From Flavobacteriales bacterium (lineage in GTDB: Bacteria > Bacteroidota > Bacteroidia > Flavobacteriales_F > PHOS-HE28), in NCBI GenBank assembly GCA_013360395.1, contig JABWBQ010000012.1, forward strand, positions 1 to 64,000: a DNA stretch of 64,000 nt. Reading direction: 5' to 3'. Each line of letters starts with the position of its first letter. Position 1 is the stretch's first letter. A model generated the notes under the pieces. The model was given only the letters and a program-made list of their open reading frames with translations. It searched no databases and was not told the origin of the DNA. The position numbers were made by a program, and so were the translations under genes. This document shows, piece by piece, positions 11,803 through 31,871 of the stretch.

Positions 11803-11831
11803 TCGATCTGAGGAACGGTTTTCGGCCTCAA

Positions 11832-12115
11832 GCCGCCAGCTTACGGCTTCCAGCCGAACGCCAACGTCCACAGATGGACGCCGATGGGCACAGATGCTCG
11901 CTGGCGCTCGCCTTCAGCCTCCGGCCACCGGCTTCCGGCCGCTAGCCTACAGCTTCCAGCCAAATGCGAACGTCCGCAGATGGCCGCCGATGGCACAGAT
12001 GCTCGCTGTCGCTCGCCTCCGGCTTCCGGCCGCCGGTTTCCAGCTTCCAGCCTCCAGCCACCGGCTTCCAGCCTCCAGCCTCCAGCTTCCAGCCACCGGC
12101 TTCCAGAGGCTTGAT
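11832..12115. repeat. Degenerate direct repeat (106-base period) running into CTTCCAG/CCTCCAG satellite
   Basis: The 427-base gene-free stretch 11732-12158 holds this patch. Two copies of a roughly 106-base unit start at 11832 and 11938; both contain AACGTCC(A/G)CAGATGG, GCCGATG, CACAGATGCTCGCTG and CGCTCGCCT. From about 12041 to 12115 the sequence is a run of 7- to 8-base units (CTTCCAG, CCTCCAG, CACCGG). The CAGATG-rich core resembles dispersed intergenic repeats seen in other environmental bacterial genomes. Small frames inside it are not credible genes. Confidence 0.8.
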
Positions 12116-12530: not shown

Positions 12531-14594
12531 ATGATGTACCGGCACACACTCTCCATCGCCGCAGGCCTTCTGTCCGTGTTCGCCGCGCAGGCCCAGCCCA
12601 AGTCCCCCTTCACCTACCAAAAGATGCTGCTGCTGGACCGCATCAGCGGCCTGGACGTCAGCCCCGACGGGCGCTACGCGGTGTTCAACGTGCGGGCCAC
12701 CGACATGGAGAACAACAAGGGCGTGACCACGCTGTGGATGAAGGACCTCAGCGATCCGGCCAAGCCCGAGGTGAAGCTCGGCGTGTCCGAGGGTGGCGCC
12801 AACGGTGCGCAGTTCAGCCCGGACGGCCAGAGCATCTACTTCCTCTCGGGCCGCGGCAGCGACGGCATCACCCAGGTGTGGAAGACCGACCTGAAGGGGG
12901 AGATGGCGGCGCAGGTCACCACCCTGCCGCTGGACGTGGGCAGCTTCCGCATCACCCCGGACGGCAAGGGCCTCGTGGTCTCCCTGGCGGTGTTCCCGGA
13001 GTGCAAGGGCAATGAGATCGCCTGTACCGTGGAGCGGAACGAGGCCCGCAAGAAGGACAAGGCCACCGGCACGGTGTACACCAGGATGTTCGTGCGCCAC
13101 TGGTCCACCTGGGAGGACGGCACGCGCAACCACCTCTTTTACGTGCCCATGGCCGGCGGCACGCCGGTGGCGATCACCGACGGACTGGACGGTGACGTGC
13201 CCTCCAAGCCGTGGGGCGATGAAGGCGACTACTGGATCGCGCCCGATTCGAGGACCGTGTACTACAGCGTGCGCACGGCGGGCACCACCGAGCCGTGGAG
13301 CACCAACTTCGACATCTGGAGCGTGCCCATCACCGGCGGCACGGCTACCAACCTCACCGCGGAGAACAAGGCCTGGGATGCAAGCCCGCGCCTTTCGCCG
13401 GATGGCAAGACCTTGGCCTACCTGGCCATGCAGCGGCCCGGCTTCGAGGCCGACCGCTTTTGGATCAAGCTGCGCGACCTGGCCACCGGCAAGGTGACCA
13501 CGCTGGCCGGCGACTGGGACCGTAGCGTAGGCGCGATGAAATGGAGCAAGGACGGCAGGAGCCTGCTGGTGACGGCGCAGGACGTGGGCCGCACCAAGCT
13601 CTTCCGGATCGACGTGAAGAAGGGCACCGTCACGCCGCTGAGCAAGGATGGCCACATGGACGCCTTCTTCGAAACGCCCAAGGGCTTCGTGTTCCTGAAG
13701 AGCGGCCTCAACAACCCCTCGCAACTGTTCGCCGCCAAGCCCAAGGCCAAGCTGATCGATGAGGGTGCGACCAAGCTCACCGCCATCAACAAGGAGCTGG
13801 AAACGCTCGCCTTCGGCCAATACGAACAGTTCAGCTTCCCCGGCTGGAACAACGAGACGGTGCACGGCTACGTGATCAAGCCCGCCAACTATGTGGAAGG
13901 GAAGAAGTACCCCGTGGCCTTCCTGATCCATGGCGGTCCGCAGGGCAGCTTCAGCGAGTCGTGGAGTTTCCGCTGGAACCCGCAGACCTACGCCGGCGCG
14001 GGCTACGCCGTGGTGATGATCGACTTCCACGGCAGCACCGGCTACGGACAGGCCTTCACCGATGCCATCAGCCAGCACTGGGGCGACCGTCCGCTGGAGG
14101 ACCTGCAGAAGGGCTGGGCCTACGCGCTGAAGACCTATCCCTTCCTGGACGGCGACCGCGCGGCCGCGCTGGGCGCCAGCTACGGCGGCTTCATGGTGAA
14201 CTGGATCGCCGGTGTCTGGCGGGATGCCTTTAAGTGCCTGGTGTCGCACAACGGCGTCTTCGACCAGCGTGCCATGGGCTATTCCACCGAGGAGCTCTGG
14301 TTCACCGACTGTGAGGTGGGCACGGACGTGTTCAACCACCCGGAGGCCTACGACAAGTTCAACCCCGTGATGCACGCCAAGGATTGGAGCGTGCCCATGT
14401 TGGTGATCCACTCCGACCACGACTACCGCATCCCGCTGTCGCAGGGGCTGGGCGTGTTCACCGCCTTGCAGGCCAAGGGCATCCCCTCGGAGTTCCTGCG
14501 TTTCCCCGACGAGAACCACTGGGTGCTGAAGCCGCAGAACTCACGCATGTGGCATGACACGGTGTTCGGGTGGCTGGAGAAGTACTTGAAGTAG
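12531..14594 (+). CDS. S9 family serine peptidase (acylaminoacyl / dipeptidyl peptidase type)
   Basis: 687 residues from ATG 12531 (ATG 12534 equally possible; a TTG further up is unlikely). Signal peptide ends near VFAAQA. The N-terminal part is a WD40-like seven-bladed propeller with TolB-like repeats (LDVSPDGRYAVF, AQFSPDGQSIYFLSG, PRLSPDGKTLAYL), the C-terminal part an alpha/beta hydrolase with Ser550 in GASYGGF, Asp631 in HSDHDYRIP and His663 in DENHWV. It probably trims peptides taken up in the periplasm. It is a single gene with no obvious operon partner. Confidence 0.9.
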   Translation: MMYRHTLSIAAGLLSVFAAQAQPKSPFTYQKMLLLDRISGLDVSPDGRYAVFNVRATDMENNKGVTTLWMKDLSDPAKPEVKLGVSEGGANGAQFSPDGQSIYFLSGRGSDGITQVWKTDLKGEMAAQVTTLPLDVGSFRITPDGKGLVVSLAVFPECKGNEIACTVERNEARKKDKATGTVYTRMFVRHWSTWEDGTRNHLFYVPMAGGTPVAITDGLDGDVPSKPWGDEGDYWIAPDSRTVYYSVRTAGTTEPWSTNFDIWSVPITGGTATNLTAENKAWDASPRLSPDGKTLAYLAMQRPGFEADRFWIKLRDLATGKVTTLAGDWDRSVGAMKWSKDGRSLLVTAQDVGRTKLFRIDVKKGTVTPLSKDGHMDAFFETPKGFVFLKSGLNNPSQLFAAKPKAKLIDEGATKLTAINKELETLAFGQYEQFSFPGWNNETVHGYVIKPANYVEGKKYPVAFLIHGGPQGSFSESWSFRWNPQTYAGAGYAVVMIDFHGSTGYGQAFTDAISQHWGDRPLEDLQKGWAYALKTYPFLDGDRAAALGASYGGFMVNWIAGVWRDAFKCLVSHNGVFDQRAMGYSTEELWFTDCEVGTDVFNHPEAYDKFNPVMHAKDWSVPMLVIHSDHDYRIPLSQGLGVFTALQAKGIPSEFLRFPDENHWVLKPQNSRMWHDTVFGWLEKYLK

Positions 14595-14617
14595 CGCACG
14601 TCCATTCGCGACCGTTG

Positions 14618-14625
14618 TATCTTCG
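14618..14625 (+). promoter_or_regulatory. -7 box TATCTTCG with flanking direct repeat
   Basis: TATCTTCG lies four bases before the antitoxin ATG. It sits between two copies of CGTTGTAT (14613-14620 and 14624-14631), a direct repeat at 11-base spacing that could be an operator for autoregulation. The role is inferred. Confidence 0.4.
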
Positions 14626-14629
14626 TTGT

Positions 14630-14806
14630 ATGGTGGTGGTCATCAAACGGGGCATGTCGAAGCAGCGCATCCAGGTGCAACTGCGGAAACTGCGCACGCA
14701 GCGGGCCAAAGCGCAGAAGCCTGTTGACGTCTACAAGTATGTAGGTGTCCTCAAGCTCGACGAAGATCCTGTTGCACTCCAGCGCAAGTGGCGGGATGAG
14801 TGGTGA
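14630..14806 (+). CDS. Small antitoxin of a VapBC-type pair
   Basis: 58 residues beginning MVVVIKRGMSKQRIQ, rich in Lys/Arg, with the second half VYKYVGVLKLDEDPVALQRKWRDEW, the typical toxin-wrapping tail of short Bacteroidota antitoxins. No classical ribbon-helix-helix or AbrB signature is obvious, so the call rests on size and on position directly before a PIN toxin. The coding sequence overlaps the toxin start by 11 bases, which favours coupled translation. Confidence 0.65.
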   Translation: MVVVIKRGMSKQRIQVQLRKLRTQRAKAQKPVDVYKYVGVLKLDEDPVALQRKWRDEW

Positions 14807-15170
14807 GAGCCTGGTGTTGGACACCAACGTGGCCCTCTTTCTCCTTCGTGGGGACAGGTCCGCCGCAGATGCGATCGCAGGTCAACGGGTGGTGATCTCC
14901 TTCATCACGTACATGGAGCTGCTCAGTAAGCCTGGCATGAGCCGAGCAGAGACCAAGGCCGTGACCGCGTTCGTGAACGAGTGGCCGATGATCGAGCTGG
15001 ATGCCCGGATCATGGAGGAGGCCATCCGTTTGCGGAAGACCTACCGCTTGAAGATCCCGGATGCCATCGTGGCCGCCACGGCCTTGACACAACAGATCCC
15101 TTTGCTCACCGCCGATGGCGACTTCGAGCGGATCAAGGACGAGGTCGCGGTGTTGATGTACGAGGTGTAG
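14796..15170 (+). CDS. PIN-domain ribonuclease toxin (VapC type)
   Basis: 124 residues. The PIN acidic residues are present: Asp9 in VLDTNV, Glu41 in YMELL, Asp89 in KIPDAIVAATA and Asp107 in LLTADGDF. PIN toxins cut RNA (often tRNA) when the antitoxin is removed. All catalytic positions are intact, so the enzyme is expected to be active. It overlaps the antitoxin by 11 bases and ends 36 bases before the -33 element of the metH promoter. Confidence 0.85.
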   Translation: MSGESLVLDTNVALFLLRGDRSAADAIAGQRVVISFITYMELLSKPGMSRAETKAVTAFVNEWPMIELDARIMEEAIRLRKTYRLKIPDAIVAATALTQQIPLLTADGDFERIKDEVAVLMYEV

Positions 15171-15251: not shown

Positions 15252-15393
15252 CGCTTATCCAGAAAGGCAGAGGGACTGGCCCTGTGAAGCCTTGGCAACC
15301 TTCGTCCCGCCGAAGTCCGTGAAAGCGGACGCAGGCGGACGTCCGACGATAGGTGCTAAATCCAGCTCCGGATGTTTCCGGGGAAAGATGAGC
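15252..15393 (+). promoter_or_regulatory. SAM-I (S-box) riboswitch aptamer
   Basis: The conserved S-box elements appear in order: CTTATCCAGAAAGGCAGAGG, GACTGGCCCTGTGAAGCC, TTGGCAACC, AGGTGCTAAATCCAGC and GGAAAGATGAG. The P1 helix pairs GCTTATC (15253-15259) with GATGAGC (15387-15393). Binding of S-adenosylmethionine stabilises P1. It sits directly upstream of the first methionine synthase gene, so it should lower expression when SAM is abundant. Confidence 0.95.
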
Positions 15394-15430
15394 CGTGATC
15401 AGGTCGCGATCCTCCTTCGGGAATAGTGCA

Positions 15431-15473: not shown

Positions 15474-15572
15474 GCGGTGAAGGTGGTGAGGGTGGAAAGA
15501 ATGGTGAGAAAGCACCGGGCAAGCCGTGGCTCTCTTTCTCACCACTCTCACCCTTTTCACCCTTCTCACCGC
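15474..15572. repeat. Long imperfect inverted repeat in the metH leader
   Basis: Arms of 39 bases (15474-15512 and 15534-15572) match at 29 of 39 positions when one is reversed and complemented, around a 21-base loop; both are made of GGTGAGGGTG-like or CACCCTTCTCACC-like triplet-rich sequence. It lies after the riboswitch terminator and ends 34 bases before the ATG of the first metH gene, so it could fold in the mRNA and affect translation, or be a dispersed REP-like element. Confidence 0.65.
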
Positions 15573-15606
15573 ATTCAGCACGGAAAGCACGCACAAACGC
15601 ACCACG

Positions 15607-16608
15607 ATGACCACCCTCGAACGCATCGCCCAAGAACGCATCCTCGTCCTCGACGGGGCCATGGGCACCATGATCCAACGCCTCGGCCTGAAGGAGGAGG
15701 ACTTCCACCCCAAAGGCATGGAGGACCACAAGGTCCTGCTCAAGGGCAACAACGAACTGCTCTCGCTCTCGCGGCCCGACGCGATCCGCAAGATCCACGA
15801 GCAATACCTGGAGGCCGGTGCCGACATCATCGAGACCAACACCTTTAGCGCCACCAGCATCGCCCAGGCCGAGCACGAATGCAGCCACCTGGCCCGCGCG
15901 ATGAACCTGGCCTCCGTGCGCCTGGCCAAGGAAGCCTGCGCCAAGTACACCGCGATGGATCCCGCCAAACCGCGCTTCGTGGCCGGTGCCATCGGGCCCA
16001 TGAACAAGACCGCCTCGCTCAGCCCCGATGTGAACGACCCCGGCTTCCGCGCCGTCACCTTCGACCAGCTCGTGGCCGCCTACAAGGAACAGGTGGAGGC
16101 CATGCTGGATGCCGACGTGGACATCCTGCTCGTGGAGACCATCTTCGACACGCTCAACGCCAAGGCCGCCTTCTACGCCATCGACGAGGTGTTCGAGGCA
16201 CGGGGCAAGCGCGTGCCGCTCATGTGCAGCGTCACCATCACCGATGCCAGCGGGCGCACGCTCAGCGGCCAGACCATCGAGGCCTTCCTCATCAGCATGC
16301 AGCATGTGCCGCTCTTCAGCATGGGCCTCAACTGCGCGCTGGGCGCGGCCCAGATGCGTCCCTACCTGGAAGTGATCGCCGAGCAGAGCCCCTGCCGCGT
16401 GAGCATCTACCCCAACGCCGGCCTGCCCGACCAGATGGGTGAATACCGCGAAACGCCCGATGTCACCGCGCGCCTCGTGGGCGAGTTCATGGCCAACGGC
16501 TGGGTGAACATCGTGGGCGGGTGTTGCGGGACCACGCCGGAGCACATTGCAGCGCTGGCGGCGGAAGCGAAGAAGCATCAACCTCGTAAGGCTCCGGTGC
16601 TGGTATGA
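15607..16608 (+). CDS. metH: Methionine synthase, homocysteine-binding half (split MetH)
   Basis: 333 residues from ATG 15607 (MTTLERIAQERILVLDGAMG); the frame opens earlier at 15526 but that stretch is inverted-repeat sequence. It is the homocysteine S-methyltransferase barrel: DGAMGTM near the start, and zinc ligands in GLNCALGA and GGCCGTTPEH. It supplies the homocysteine site for cobalamin-dependent methionine synthesis, with the other domains encoded by the gene at 17244. Such a two-gene arrangement is usual in Bacteroidota. Controlled by the SAM-I riboswitch upstream. Confidence 0.93.
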   Translation: MTTLERIAQERILVLDGAMGTMIQRLGLKEEDFHPKGMEDHKVLLKGNNELLSLSRPDAIRKIHEQYLEAGADIIETNTFSATSIAQAEHECSHLARAMNLASVRLAKEACAKYTAMDPAKPRFVAGAIGPMNKTASLSPDVNDPGFRAVTFDQLVAAYKEQVEAMLDADVDILLVETIFDTLNAKAAFYAIDEVFEARGKRVPLMCSVTITDASGRTLSGQTIEAFLISMQHVPLFSMGLNCALGAAQMRPYLEVIAEQSPCRVSIYPNAGLPDQMGEYRETPDVTARLVGEFMANGWVNIVGGCCGTTPEHIAALAAEAKKHQPRKAPVLV

Positions 16609-16613
16609 GTGCA

Positions 16614-16641
16614 TCACCACAGAGGCACAGAGGGCACAGAG
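16614..16641 (+). repeat. Left copy of the CACAGAGG repeat flanking the GxxExxY gene
   Basis: A 28-base sequence (TCACCACAGAGGCACAGAGG then GCACAGAG) begins five bases after the metH-N stop. It is the exact reverse complement of the core of the units at 17144 and 17197, so the gene between is bracketed by inverted repeats. Confidence 0.9.
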
Positions 16642-16647
16642 GAGGGG

Positions 16648-17040
16648 ATGACGCACAACGAAGTATCAGGCAAGGTCATCAGGGCGGCCATTGCCGTCCA
16701 TCGGGAGTTGGGTCCCGGTCTTCTGGAGAGCGTGTATCAAGTCTGCTTGATGGCCGAATTGAAGAGCATGGGCTTGCACGTGGAAGAACAAGTCGCGGTT
16801 CCCATTGTGTACCGTGGGGAACGGTTGGCGAACAGCCTTCGGATCGATCTGCTCGTGGAGGACCGGGTCGTCGTGGGGATCAAGGCCGTCGAGGATCTTC
16901 ATCCCATTCATATGGCCCAACAGCTGACCTATCTGAGACTGACCAAAAAGAAGCTCGGCTTGCTCATCAACTTCAACACGACCAAGCTCGTTGACGGGAT
17001 CGAGCGTGTCATGAACGGATACTTGGATGAAGGGGAGTAA
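16648..17040 (+). CDS. GxxExxY protein (PD-(D/E)XK nuclease-like)
   Basis: 130 residues from ATG 16648 (preceded by AGGAGGGG; an upstream in-frame GTG at 16609 would translate the repeat). The name motif is GLLESVY (Gly24, Glu27, Tyr30 in HRELGPGLLESVY), followed by LRIDLLVEDRVVVGIKAVE and QQLTYLRLTKKKLGLLINFN, which identify the PDDEXK_3 / GxxExxY family. In relatives the central motif reads (V)E(L)K; here the acid is Gly77 (codon GGG at 16876-16878) before Lys79, so nuclease activity is doubtful. The gene lies between the two metH genes and is flanked by a repeat family. The function of the family is not established. Confidence 0.88.
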   Translation: MTHNEVSGKVIRAAIAVHRELGPGLLESVYQVCLMAELKSMGLHVEEQVAVPIVYRGERLANSLRIDLLVEDRVVVGIKAVEDLHPIHMAQQLTYLRLTKKKLGLLINFNTTKLVDGIERVMNGYLDEGE

Positions 17041-17050
17041 TGCGAAATAC

Positions 17051-17075
17051 TTCACCACAGAGGCACAGAGGACAC
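17051..17075 (+). repeat. Second direct copy of the CACAGAGG repeat
   Basis: TTCACCACAGAGGCACAGAG followed by GACAC, ten bases after the GxxExxY stop, in the same orientation as the left copy but diverging after 20 bases. Confidence 0.85.
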
Positions 17076-17090
17076 GAAGTGAGTCCAGTT

Positions 17091-17230
17091 GCATTTCTCT
17101 GTGCCCTCTGTGTCTCTGTGGTGAGCCCCGCCATCCCGTCGTCGCATTTCTCTGTGCCCTCTGTGCCTCTGTGGTGAGCCCCGCCATCCCGTCGTCGCAT
17201 TTCTCTGTGCCCTCTGTGCCTCTGTGGTGA
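17091..17230 (-). repeat. Three tandem inverted copies of the repeat, 53-base period
   Basis: Units start at 17091, 17144 and 17197. Each has a 34-base repeat (GCATTTCTCTGTGCCCTCTG then TG(T/C)CTCTGTGGTGA); the first two are followed by an identical 19-base spacer (GCCCCGCCATCCCGTCGTC). The only difference between units is T/C at the 23rd base. The array ends 13 bases before the ATG of the second metH gene. Confidence 0.92.
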
Positions 17231-17243
17231 ACCCGCATTTCCA

Positions 17244-19925
<2,682 letters not shown>

Positions 19926-29018: not shown

Positions 29019-31871
29019 ATGAAACGCGCCCTGATCCCTGTGCTGCTCGGCCTGACCTTCCTGCCCGCCATGGGGCCGGAGGCCCAGGCGCAACTGTTGA
29101 TCAACAACGCGCCCACCCCGCAGAACCTGGTGCTGAACACCTTATTGGGCGGTGGTGTGGCCGCCAACAACGTTCTGTACAACGGCATGGCCGGCGCTCC
29201 GGGCGGGCAGGCCGGGTGCGGGGCCTTCACGGCCAGCGGCACCAACCTGGGACTGGCCTCCGGCATCATCCTTTCCACCGGCAGCGTGCTCGATGCCCCG
29301 GGCATGGGCGACATCACCTTCGCCAGCACGTCCATCTTCGGCGGGAGCGACCCCGACCTGCAGCTCCTTTCCGGTGTGCAGATCTCCGACGCTTCCGTAC
29401 TGGAGTTCGATTTCGTGCCCACCGGCAACGCTATCTCGTTCAACTTCGTGTTCGCTTCGGAGGAATATCCCGAGTACGTGTGCAACACGGTGAACGACGC
29501 CTTCGGCTTCTTCCTGAGCGGCCCGGGCATCTCCGGCCCGTACTCCAACGGTGCGGCGAACATCGCCCTGATCCCCGGCACCGGGGTGCCGGTGACCATC
29601 AACACCCTGAACAGCGGCTCATCCGGCGATCCAACCTTGGGCTCCGACCCCATGTACTGCTTCGCGGCCGATCCCAACTGGGTCGCCAACAGCGTGTACT
29701 ATGTGGACAACATGATGGGCAACACGATCACCTATGATGGGATGACCACCGTGCTCACCGCCAGTGCGGCCGTGCAGTGCGGCCAGACCTACCATATCAA
29801 GCTGGCGATCGGCGACGGCGGTGACGACCTCTACGACTCGGCCGTGTTCCTGGAATCGGGCAGCTTCGTGAGCGCGCAACCGGTGGTGACCGTCAGCCCC
29901 GACGTCAACCTGCCGTGCAGCGGCACAGTGGACATCAGCATCCTGAACGTCACCGGCGGCACGCCGCCCTACAACTACCAGTGGACCCTCAACGGGAGCC
30001 CGGTGAGCAGCAACCAGACCATCACCGTGGGGCAGGGCCAGCAGGGCAACTACGTGGCCACCGTGACCGATGGCTGCGGGGCCGTGGTGCAGGAGACCGT
30101 GGTGGTGGGTGCTCCGGTGAGCCCGCCCATGACCCTGACGCTGACGCCCGACCTGAACCTGCCTTGCAGCGGCACGGTGGACCTGGAGGTGCTGAACCTC
30201 ACGGGCGGCACGCCTCCCTTCACCTACACCTGGACACTGAACGGCACCACGGTGGGCACGGGCACCTCCATCACCGTGCCCAACACGGCCCCCGGGACCT
30301 ACGTGCTGACGGTGAACGACAACTGCGCCGGGACCGTGCAGGAGGACGTGGTGGTGGGCCCGCCGGTAAGCCCGCCCATGACCCTGACGCTGAGCCCCGA
30401 CCTGACCTTCGACTGCCTGGGCACGGGCGACCTCAGCGTGCTGAACGTGGCCGGCGGCACCCCGCCCTTCACCTACACCTGGACGCTGAACGGCACCACC
30501 GTGGGCACCGGCACCAACATCCCTGTGGACGCCACGGCCCCCGGTACTTACACGGTGACGGTGAACGACAACTGCGGCGGTGTGCAGCAGGGCACCATCA
30601 CCGTGACGGTACTGCCCCCGGCCGTGCTGACGGTCACCGCGTCGCCGGACCTGGAATTGCCCTGCCAGGGCACCGTGCTGTTGGAGGTGCTGAATGTGGT
30701 GGGCGGGGTGGCCCCGTACACCTACGAATGGACCCTGAACGGCGCGACCCAGGGCACCACGGCCCAGTTGACCGTGCCCGCCGGTTCGCCCGGCGCCTAC
30801 GTGGTGACCGTGGAGGACGCCTGTGGCGGCAGCGGCACGGCCACCGTGCAGGTGAGCCCGCCCAACATGCCCACCCTCACCATCACCCCCGGTGGGCCCT
30901 ACACCGTGCCCTGCCTGGGCAACGTGGTGTCCCTGACCCCGGGCGTCACTGGCGGCGATGGCCAGTACACCTACCTCTGGACCGATGATGCGGGCAACGG
31001 CGTAGGCAGCGGGGCCACCCTGAACGTGCCGGTGACCGCCGACGCCACCTACACACTGACGGTGAACGACAACTGCGGTCAGCAGACCAGTGCCACCCTG
31101 GCCGTGGATGCCCCGGAGCCCTTGGACCTGTTGCTGCCCGCCACGGCCGTGGCCTGTGAGGGCGGCAGCGCCACGGTGACCGCCGGTGGCACGGGCGGCG
31201 GTGGGACCTACACCTTCCTGTGGCAACCCTCGGGCGCCACCGACAGTGCGGTCACCGTATTCCCCGCGGGCGACACCACGCTGACCGTGACGGTGATCGA
31301 CGCCTGCGGGGACAGCGTCAGCGGGGCCGTCACCGTGATGGTAGAGATCCCCGTGGTGGAGATCACCACCAGCGAACTGGGTGGCGACGAATTCCGCTTC
31401 ACAGCGCAATGCCTGCCCGGGGCGGAGACCTACCATTGGACCTTCAGCAACGGGGCGCAGGCCTTCGGCACGCCCGTGCAGACCACCTTCGCCGATGGCG
31501 ACGAGTACTGGGCCACCGTGACGGCCATCACCCCGGCGGGATGCACCGATGTGGACAGCGTGTTCCTGCAGCCCGGTGGACAGCTTTACATCCCCAACGC
31601 CTTCACCCCGGACGGCGATGGCATCAACGACACCTGGGGCCCGGTGTGGTACGCCATGACCGAGGTGAGCTACACCATCTACGACCGTTGGGGTGAGGTG
31701 ATCTTCACCACCGATGAACCGGGCCGCACCTGGGATGGGCGTTTCACCAACGGCCAGCCCTGTCCCACCGGGGTCTACGTGTACCAGTACAAGGCCAAGG
31801 GCGTACGTTTCCCCTCCACCAAGGGCATCGGCTCGGTGACGCTGCTGGGCCAGGACCTCGACCCGGATTGA
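29019..31871 (+). CDS. Choice-of-anchor L protein with PKD/SprB-like repeats and CHU_C (T9SS type B) C-terminus, copy 1
   Basis: 950 residues from ATG 29019. Signal peptide to about PEAQAQ. Residues about 26-290 form a choice-of-anchor L domain (FNFVFASEEYPEYVC, DAFGFFLSGPGISGPYSNG, TYHIKLAIGDGGDDLYDSAV). About six repeats of roughly 82 residues follow, each with the pattern PCSGTVDLEVLNLTGGTPPF, TWTLNGTTVGTGT and YVLTVNDNC. The last 90 residues (IPNAFTPDGDGINDTW, YDRWGEVIF, TWDGRFTNGQPCPTGVY) are the CHU_C domain that directs T9SS secretion. Likely a surface adhesin or matrix protein; first of three paralogues. Confidence 0.88.
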   Translation: MKRALIPVLLGLTFLPAMGPEAQAQLLINNAPTPQNLVLNTLLGGGVAANNVLYNGMAGAPGGQAGCGAFTASGTNLGLASGIILSTGSVLDAPGMGDITFASTSIFGGSDPDLQLLSGVQISDASVLEFDFVPTGNAISFNFVFASEEYPEYVCNTVNDAFGFFLSGPGISGPYSNGAANIALIPGTGVPVTINTLNSGSSGDPTLGSDPMYCFAADPNWVANSVYYVDNMMGNTITYDGMTTVLTASAAVQCGQTYHIKLAIGDGGDDLYDSAVFLESGSFVSAQPVVTVSPDVNLPCSGTVDISILNVTGGTPPYNYQWTLNGSPVSSNQTITVGQGQQGNYVATVTDGCGAVVQETVVVGAPVSPPMTLTLTPDLNLPCSGTVDLEVLNLTGGTPPFTYTWTLNGTTVGTGTSITVPNTAPGTYVLTVNDNCAGTVQEDVVVGPPVSPPMTLTLSPDLTFDCLGTGDLSVLNVAGGTPPFTYTWTLNGTTVGTGTNIPVDATAPGTYTVTVNDNCGGVQQGTITVTVLPPAVLTVTASPDLELPCQGTVLLEVLNVVGGVAPYTYEWTLNGATQGTTAQLTVPAGSPGAYVVTVEDACGGSGTATVQVSPPNMPTLTITPGGPYTVPCLGNVVSLTPGVTGGDGQYTYLWTDDAGNGVGSGATLNVPVTADATYTLTVNDNCGQQTSATLAVDAPEPLDLLLPATAVACEGGSATVTAGGTGGGGTYTFLWQPSGATDSAVTVFPAGDTTLTVTVIDACGDSVSGAVTVMVEIPVVEITTSELGGDEFRFTAQCLPGAETYHWTFSNGAQAFGTPVQTTFADGDEYWATVTAITPAGCTDVDSVFLQPGGQLYIPNAFTPDGDGINDTWGPVWYAMTEVSYTIYDRWGEVIFTTDEPGRTWDGRFTNGQPCPTGVYVYQYKAKGVRFPSTKGIGSVTLLGQDLDPD

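Follow-up and report, generated by a model that had tools for sequence, protein, structure and literature searches.

What kind of genetic unit separates the two metH genes of this Flavobacteriales genome, and are its repeats connected with the one small gene that they enclose? The unit lies within a 64,000-nucleotide stretch of DNA, referred to here as the window, and all positions are those of the whole stretch. In a preliminary description it had been read as a small mobile element, possibly non-autonomous or self-mobilising, with a nuclease-like protein as its only product.

The unit at the metH junction

The metH pair lies downstream of a SAM riboswitch (15252-15394, plus strand; Rfam RF00162, 82.7 bits), so that the riboswitch assigned to the pair by the preliminary description is indeed present. 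The left neighbour, metH-N, encodes the homocysteine-binding part (15526-16608, plus strand; PF02574, with the first third of the NCBIfam methionine synthase model matched), and the right neighbour, metH-C (17244-19925, plus strand), carries the Pterin_bind, B12-binding and Met_synt_B12 domains. Between them, the unit begins with a left arm of 28 nt (16614-16641, plus strand), consisting of ACC and three tandem words of ~9 nt (CACAGAGG-CACAGAGGG-CACAGAG). It is followed by a GxxExxY gene of 130 amino acids (16648-17040, plus strand), by a second arm that is a direct copy of the left one (17051-17075, plus strand), and by three arms that copy the left arm in the opposite orientation (17097-17124, 17150-17177 and 17203-17230, all minus strand). 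The three right arms make up a tandem array of 53-bp units (TRF 17091-17234, period 53), and the third forms the outer end of the whole. These coordinates confirm exactly the layout first proposed, i.e., a 28-base left repeat, a gene, a direct copy and three inverted tandem copies, and the ends that had been called near-perfect inverted repeats extend over 28 nt, with 100% complementarity between the left arm and two of the three right arms. The direct arm at 17051-17075 and the stretch 17101-17124 also form a gene-less arm-loop-arm palindrome with a 25-nt loop. There is an in-frame GTG at 16609, from which translation would run through the left arm. ATGAG on either side of the unit is at most suggestive of a target-site duplication; ATGA-like repeats occur at other overlapping gene starts, and the need to keep both a stop and a start codon would also demand such repeats. 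Upstream of the riboswitch, at 14570-15170, are two small neighbouring ORFs that by eye resemble an antitoxin gene paired with that of a PIN-domain toxin.

In profile searches, the protein encoded by the unit matched PDDEXK_3 (E = 7e-42, 142.9 bits; curated cut-off 22) and TIGR04256 GxxExxY (E = 5e-43, 146.2 bits; curated cut-off 35). It is a clear member of this family, which is annotated by name only, and it shares its PD-(D/E)XK fold and its motif, including a RecB/Cas4-like QxxxY, with RecB, Cas4 and lambda exonuclease. An AlphaFold model (pLDDT 94.5) had a PD-(D/E)XK-like order of elements, and the best Foldseek matches were Cas4 and lambda-exonuclease-type nucleases, albeit weak ones (E of 4e-3 and above). 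An alignment of relatives (A1) showed no variation at E27, D67, K79 and Y95 and almost none at E77 and Q91. The window copy keeps E27, D67 and K79, but the catalytic Glu of its ExK (E77), found in nearly all other rows of A1, is replaced by Gly (VVGIK, codons 16870-16884), and the complete E..D..ExK motif is therefore absent from it. Because of this Gly, the active site of the window copy is probably impaired, though its frame is open; the copy has probably been resident for a long time. For orthologous copies in different species, dN/dS was ~0.03-0.19 where the estimate converged, i.e., there is purifying selection where the gene is inherited.

Searches with the window protein returned no relative from the PDB (by sequence), from viral contigs or from phages (by protein). 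A plasmid search by protein gave 8 distant records, with clean arms at two loci (L379 and L380) and none at two others (L382 and L383).

Terminal inverted repeats are present on the metH unit, and in having a single gene between inverted ends that recur in gene-less copies, it resembles an insertion sequence with its MITEs. However, there is no transposase, PDDEXK_3 being the only gene of the unit by profile search (the preliminary description had reported the same absence), and the loops are non-homologous between copies; the insertion sequence/MITE assignment was rejected on the transposase criterion. A homing endonuclease gene was also rejected: the gene is intergenic, no intron family appeared in an Rfam scan, and the sites are many and different.

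Repeat words and protein lineages

An 18-nt core of the arm, searched with a tolerance of 2 mismatches, had 26 matches in the genome, compared with 0 for a reversed control, and most matches form inverted pairs 50-90 bp apart. The CACAGAG-type word recurs at ~14 further places. Most of these are arm-loop-arm palindromes, with loops of ~10-60 nt, and they sit just 3' of stop codons, in tight junctions. From place to place the arms are near-identical, and the loops are not homologous apart from a GCATT motif that in many cases directly precedes the right arm on its inner side. Four GxxExxY genes are present in the genome, all framed by inverted arrays of one design. There are four words for the four copies (CACAGAGG, CGCAACGG, CGCAGATGG and CACGGATGG), and the three genes outside the metH junction carry CGCAACG, CGCAGATG and CACGGATG. 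Thus, the proposal that the repeat is tied to GxxExxY genes held for the design, which is present at all four, but not for the window's own word, which is present at one only.

Word arrays also occur at 11823-12106 of the window, where 7-nt words (CTTCCAG/CCTCCAG) stand beside GATG-type 9-nt words (CGCAGATGG, CACAGATGG) within a 105-bp repeat of 2.2 copies, with neither a GxxExxY nor an IVP gene there. A separate tandem repeat at 30087-30580 (period 249, 2 copies, 82%) probably represents repeated domains of a large surface protein.

Within the genus, GxxExxY matches were present in 35/39 genomes, with up to five each, and were not detected in the other 4; nearly all of the loci examined are framed by inverted word arrays. 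A scan using one genome per species yielded 80 GxxExxY loci from several bacterial phyla and the Methanosarcinales, among others from Bacteroidota, Ignavibacteria, Desulfobacterota, Cyanobacteria, Proteobacteria, Planctomycetes, Verrucomicrobia, Acidobacteria and Gemmatimonadota. Since A1 was too diverse for a pattern scan, a narrower alignment (A2) was used, which biases this far sample to GPGLLE-type proteins. The inverted-arm score had a median of 18.5 (n = 75 loci) versus 10 in within-locus control windows (n = 138), and 48 of the 75 loci scored above the control maximum (Mann-Whitney p = 2e-20). With 100 further loci added, word pairs were counted over 208 GxxExxY loci and compared with shuffled expectation: RCNRAG (RAG-type) words stood on both sides at 87 loci (expected 1.4), RCNRAT words at 38 (expected 0.9) and RCNRCG words at 13 (expected 2.7). 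The design also occurs in isolates of Nostoc, Dolichospermum, Flavobacterium, Sphingomonas and Bacteroides. The association is strong rather than universal, some loci, such as L382 and L383, having no recognisable arms. The earlier statement that GxxExxY genes occur in many phyla with repeats nearby was borne out, and more widely than claimed, in bacteria and some archaea.

We also examined co-occurrence across the class with a strict RAG-type arm pattern, in 119 genomes of which almost all had a completeness of at least 90%. Of 532 arms, 529 were in the 80 GxxExxY-positive genomes and 3 in the 39 negative ones, so that the suspected genome-wide association was found, with host phylogeny only partly controlled. 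With the same partial control, at least 2 arms were present in 31/80 positive and 0/39 negative genomes (p = 4e-7). Genomes with a single GxxExxY gene may hold more than 30 arms (G113, G147), and the association therefore involves more than the flanks of the gene.

When the word was treated as a label on a maximum-likelihood tree of 137 proteins, it required 14 changes, compared with a mean of 45.8 after shuffling (0/200 shuffles were as low). The tree is short (125 columns) and has many open forks, and near-copies account for some of the clustering. One deep split with a support of 99 sets most GATG, AGGAT and TTGTC words apart from RAG and RCG words. Both the host genus and this genome contain several words, each going with its own protein clade, and host identity therefore cannot explain the word. 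This co-variation of word and protein clade, the main evidence on the point, strongly indicates that the GxxExxY protein recognises its own arms. In the open-access literature we found no paper that contains the letters of the repeat or links GxxExxY or IVP genes to repeats. Three points had been missed in the preliminary description, i.e., that the arm varies with the protein clade, that most arms are gene-less, and that 23S_rRNA_IVP genes share the architecture.

Fixed junctions and IVP genes

Empty metH sites in relatives, which the preliminary description had proposed to look for, were found in congeners (L040 and L044, with 3 and 6 nt between the genes); in G021 and G022 the metH genes abut or overlap (ATGA). 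A GxxExxY unit is present at metH in G000 and G047, and G032, of another family, also has a CACAGAG/GxxExxY unit there; the G030 junction holds an IVP-like gene (a four-helix bundle, by eye) with 7-nt words. The empty junctions and the genome-wide association largely support the small mobile element originally proposed; its self-mobilisation is putative, and the window copy is without the catalytic Glu. At the metH junction of congeners (L032, L033, L034, L036, L065) there is also a GC-rich element of ~120 nt (GTGGGCGTGCCC...GCTTTCCGCTGCAATCGCTCACGC), followed in several cases by unrelated small ORFs; the element has the look of a cassette or of an attC-like repeat.

Seven gene-less junctions of G000 were compared across seven congeners. 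Between sufD and sufS (named by eye), G000 has CACAGAG, G003 CGCAACG, G008 CGCCAAG and G017 CGCAGAG, while G010 and G019 are empty. The pdhB-pdhC junction is empty in G047 and holds CGCAACG-like words in G005 and G008. At lipB there is a GxxExxY gene in G053, G010 and G040, a gene-less 7-nt palindrome in G003, G008, G009 and G016, and a CGCAACG palindrome in G022. At the L068 junction, G017 and G001 have GxxExxY and G003, G013 and G039 have IVP. In Bacteroides finegoldii, a GxxExxY gene lies between clean arms 3' of radA, where related genomes are empty. Taken together, the results show that the arms and the gene are an evolutionary unit, that the word fits the protein lineage, and that units and palindromes vary at the same junctions among related species. 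The recurrence at the same junctions would reflect hotspots or, alternatively, an in-place exchange of words.

The PF05635 (23S_rRNA_IVP) genes were present in 38/39 congeners and in 45/61 genomes sampled from the phylum. They too are framed by inverted arms (median score 17 versus 9.5 in controls, p = 3e-21). The period of these arms was 7 in 31/37 scored loci, whereas that of GxxExxY arms was 8-10 in 116/149 loci and 7 in only 6 (Fisher p = 2e-23). Arms of 7-nt words occur at L049 (IVP-like by eye) and at L093 and L099 (IVP), at junctions that elsewhere hold GxxExxY units. IVP genes are known to be scattered in rRNA insertions (PMC11270868) and to occur inside cas operons (PMC3936711), both of which, in our own reading, agree with the word-arm picture. 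An intervening sequence of 23S rRNA with its IVP gene is like the window unit in being a small gene between inverted ends where the host tolerates insertion, and outside rRNA the IVP genes have word arms as well, of 7-nt words. The fold of the protein and the word length are different, however, and the window unit is not in rRNA; its assignment as a 23S rRNA intervening sequence was rejected, there being no PF05635 match in the gene and its location being metH.

Models for the gene and its arms

The explanation to which we incline, with moderate confidence, is that the window unit belongs to a widespread class of element that combines a GxxExxY nuclease with cognate arms and is spread, in the manner of REPIN/RAYT systems, by that nuclease. 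Such an element would comprise a GxxExxY gene between inverted arms, each of ACC and about three tandem words of ~9 nt. The protein would bind its own word in both arms and nick or cleave the DNA there, and the cut, with host repair, would copy or move gene-less palindromes, as well as the protein's own unit, into tight junctions between genes. Its role would be that proposed for the RAYT protein, which has been suggested to act on REPINs (PLoS Genet 2011; PMC3116915), with a RecB/Cas4-like metal nuclease replacing the HUH transposase. Four findings count against this nuclease model. CGCAACG palindromes occur in G005 and G008, whose assemblies have no GxxExxY gene of that clade; gene-less palindromes have homologous arms and non-homologous loops, which is odd for simple copy-paste; orthologous units, with their genes conserved, are retained from species to species, as would be expected of residents rather than of active transposons; and the window copy is without the catalytic Glu.

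The likeness to REPIN/RAYT systems lies in one gene flanked by cognate inverted repeats, in many gene-less inverted doublets in extragenic space, and in a repeat type that co-evolves with the gene and persists largely vertically. The differences are that a PD-(D/E)XK nuclease (or a four-helix bundle) takes the place of a Y1 HUH transposase, that the repeats are tandem arrays of 9-nt (or 7-nt) words rather than REPs, and that the repeats at classical RAYTs of this genus are of another kind. Because it has no Y1 transposase and its words are not those of the RAYT loci in the genus, the GxxExxY unit would act like a REPIN/RAYT system but is not a member. We file it with systems of one gene, cognate ends and gene-less copies, as the nuclease variant of that kind.

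An alternative, which we regard as unlikely though it fares best among the rivals, is that some other host or mobile process spreads or rewrites the palindromes, while small genes (GxxExxY, IVP) settle inside them and move by recombination through the arms. This would suit the excess of gene-less arms and the fact that two unrelated gene families share one architecture and even the same junctions, i.e., metH (GxxExxY in G000 and G032, an IVP-like gene in G030) and L068 (GxxExxY in G017 versus IVP in G003, G013 and G039). However, the word should not matter to a passenger, whereas the word type tracks the protein clade and the period tracks the gene family (7 nt for IVP versus 8-10 nt for GxxExxY), and these arms are all but absent from genomes of the class that lack GxxExxY.

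Less probable still is a host function, in which the arms would be RNA or DNA hairpins of operons that serve in mRNA segmentation, in attenuation or in chromosome structure, with GxxExxY as a domesticated processing nuclease. The sites in tight junctions of co-directional genes, and the purifying selection on inherited copies, are what such a function would predict, but the same junction differs between congeners in both presence and word, which argues against a fixed role at a given operon, and no GxxExxY was detected in 4/39 congeners.

That the palindromes are ordinary REP doublets, moved as REPINs by a Y1 transposase with its gene at another locus, we consider very improbable. Although Y1_Tnp genes are present in 30/39 congeners, the flanks of 20 Y1_Tnp/RAYT-like loci, where repeated, hold other GC-rich palindromes and not word arms, and G052, G054, G007 and G003 have GxxExxY units without a detected Y1_Tnp. 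RAYT was rejected as the cognate enzyme, the RAYT loci of the genus carrying other repeats. Three RAYT-like Y1 transposase loci of the genus (L331, L337, L345) have GC-rich palindromes of their own, distinct from word arms. Finally, chance or an assembly artefact, i.e., low-complexity repeats beside a small ORF, merits almost no weight: many of the sampled genomes are metagenome assemblies, but the controls (reversed core, control windows, GxxExxY-negative genomes and shuffling) exclude it and the design also occurs in isolates.

Returning to the nuclease-spread element, we tentatively propose a wider version of it, which may well not hold. Tandem words of fixed period (9 or 7 nt) could be the recognition ends of two unrelated one-gene classes, the GxxExxY nuclease and the IVP four-helix bundle, which would share hotspots at operon junctions, with words exchangeable in place; this would imply a general, undescribed mechanism of transposase-free mobility or word rewriting across bacteria and archaea. 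GxxExxY and IVP are small proteins, common and sporadic in environmental bacteria, to which no role has been assigned, and intergenic repeats as short as these have so far counted as mere curiosities. The link between a protein lineage and a DNA word of its own gives both families a testable function, explains the presence of such genes inside unrelated operons, e.g., IVP genes in cas operons (PMC3936711), and makes the spread of a transposase-free one-gene unit a directly testable question.

Multicopy intergenic repeats, both palindromes and short direct repeats, occupy many intergenic regions of Geobacter genomes (PMC2996986); they are alike in these respects, but were described there without a link to a gene family. 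In the right flanks of L074 and L085, right arms are amplified as tandem units of ~50 bp, the words of which differ between species and agree within a locus, which suggests local homogenisation of the arms.
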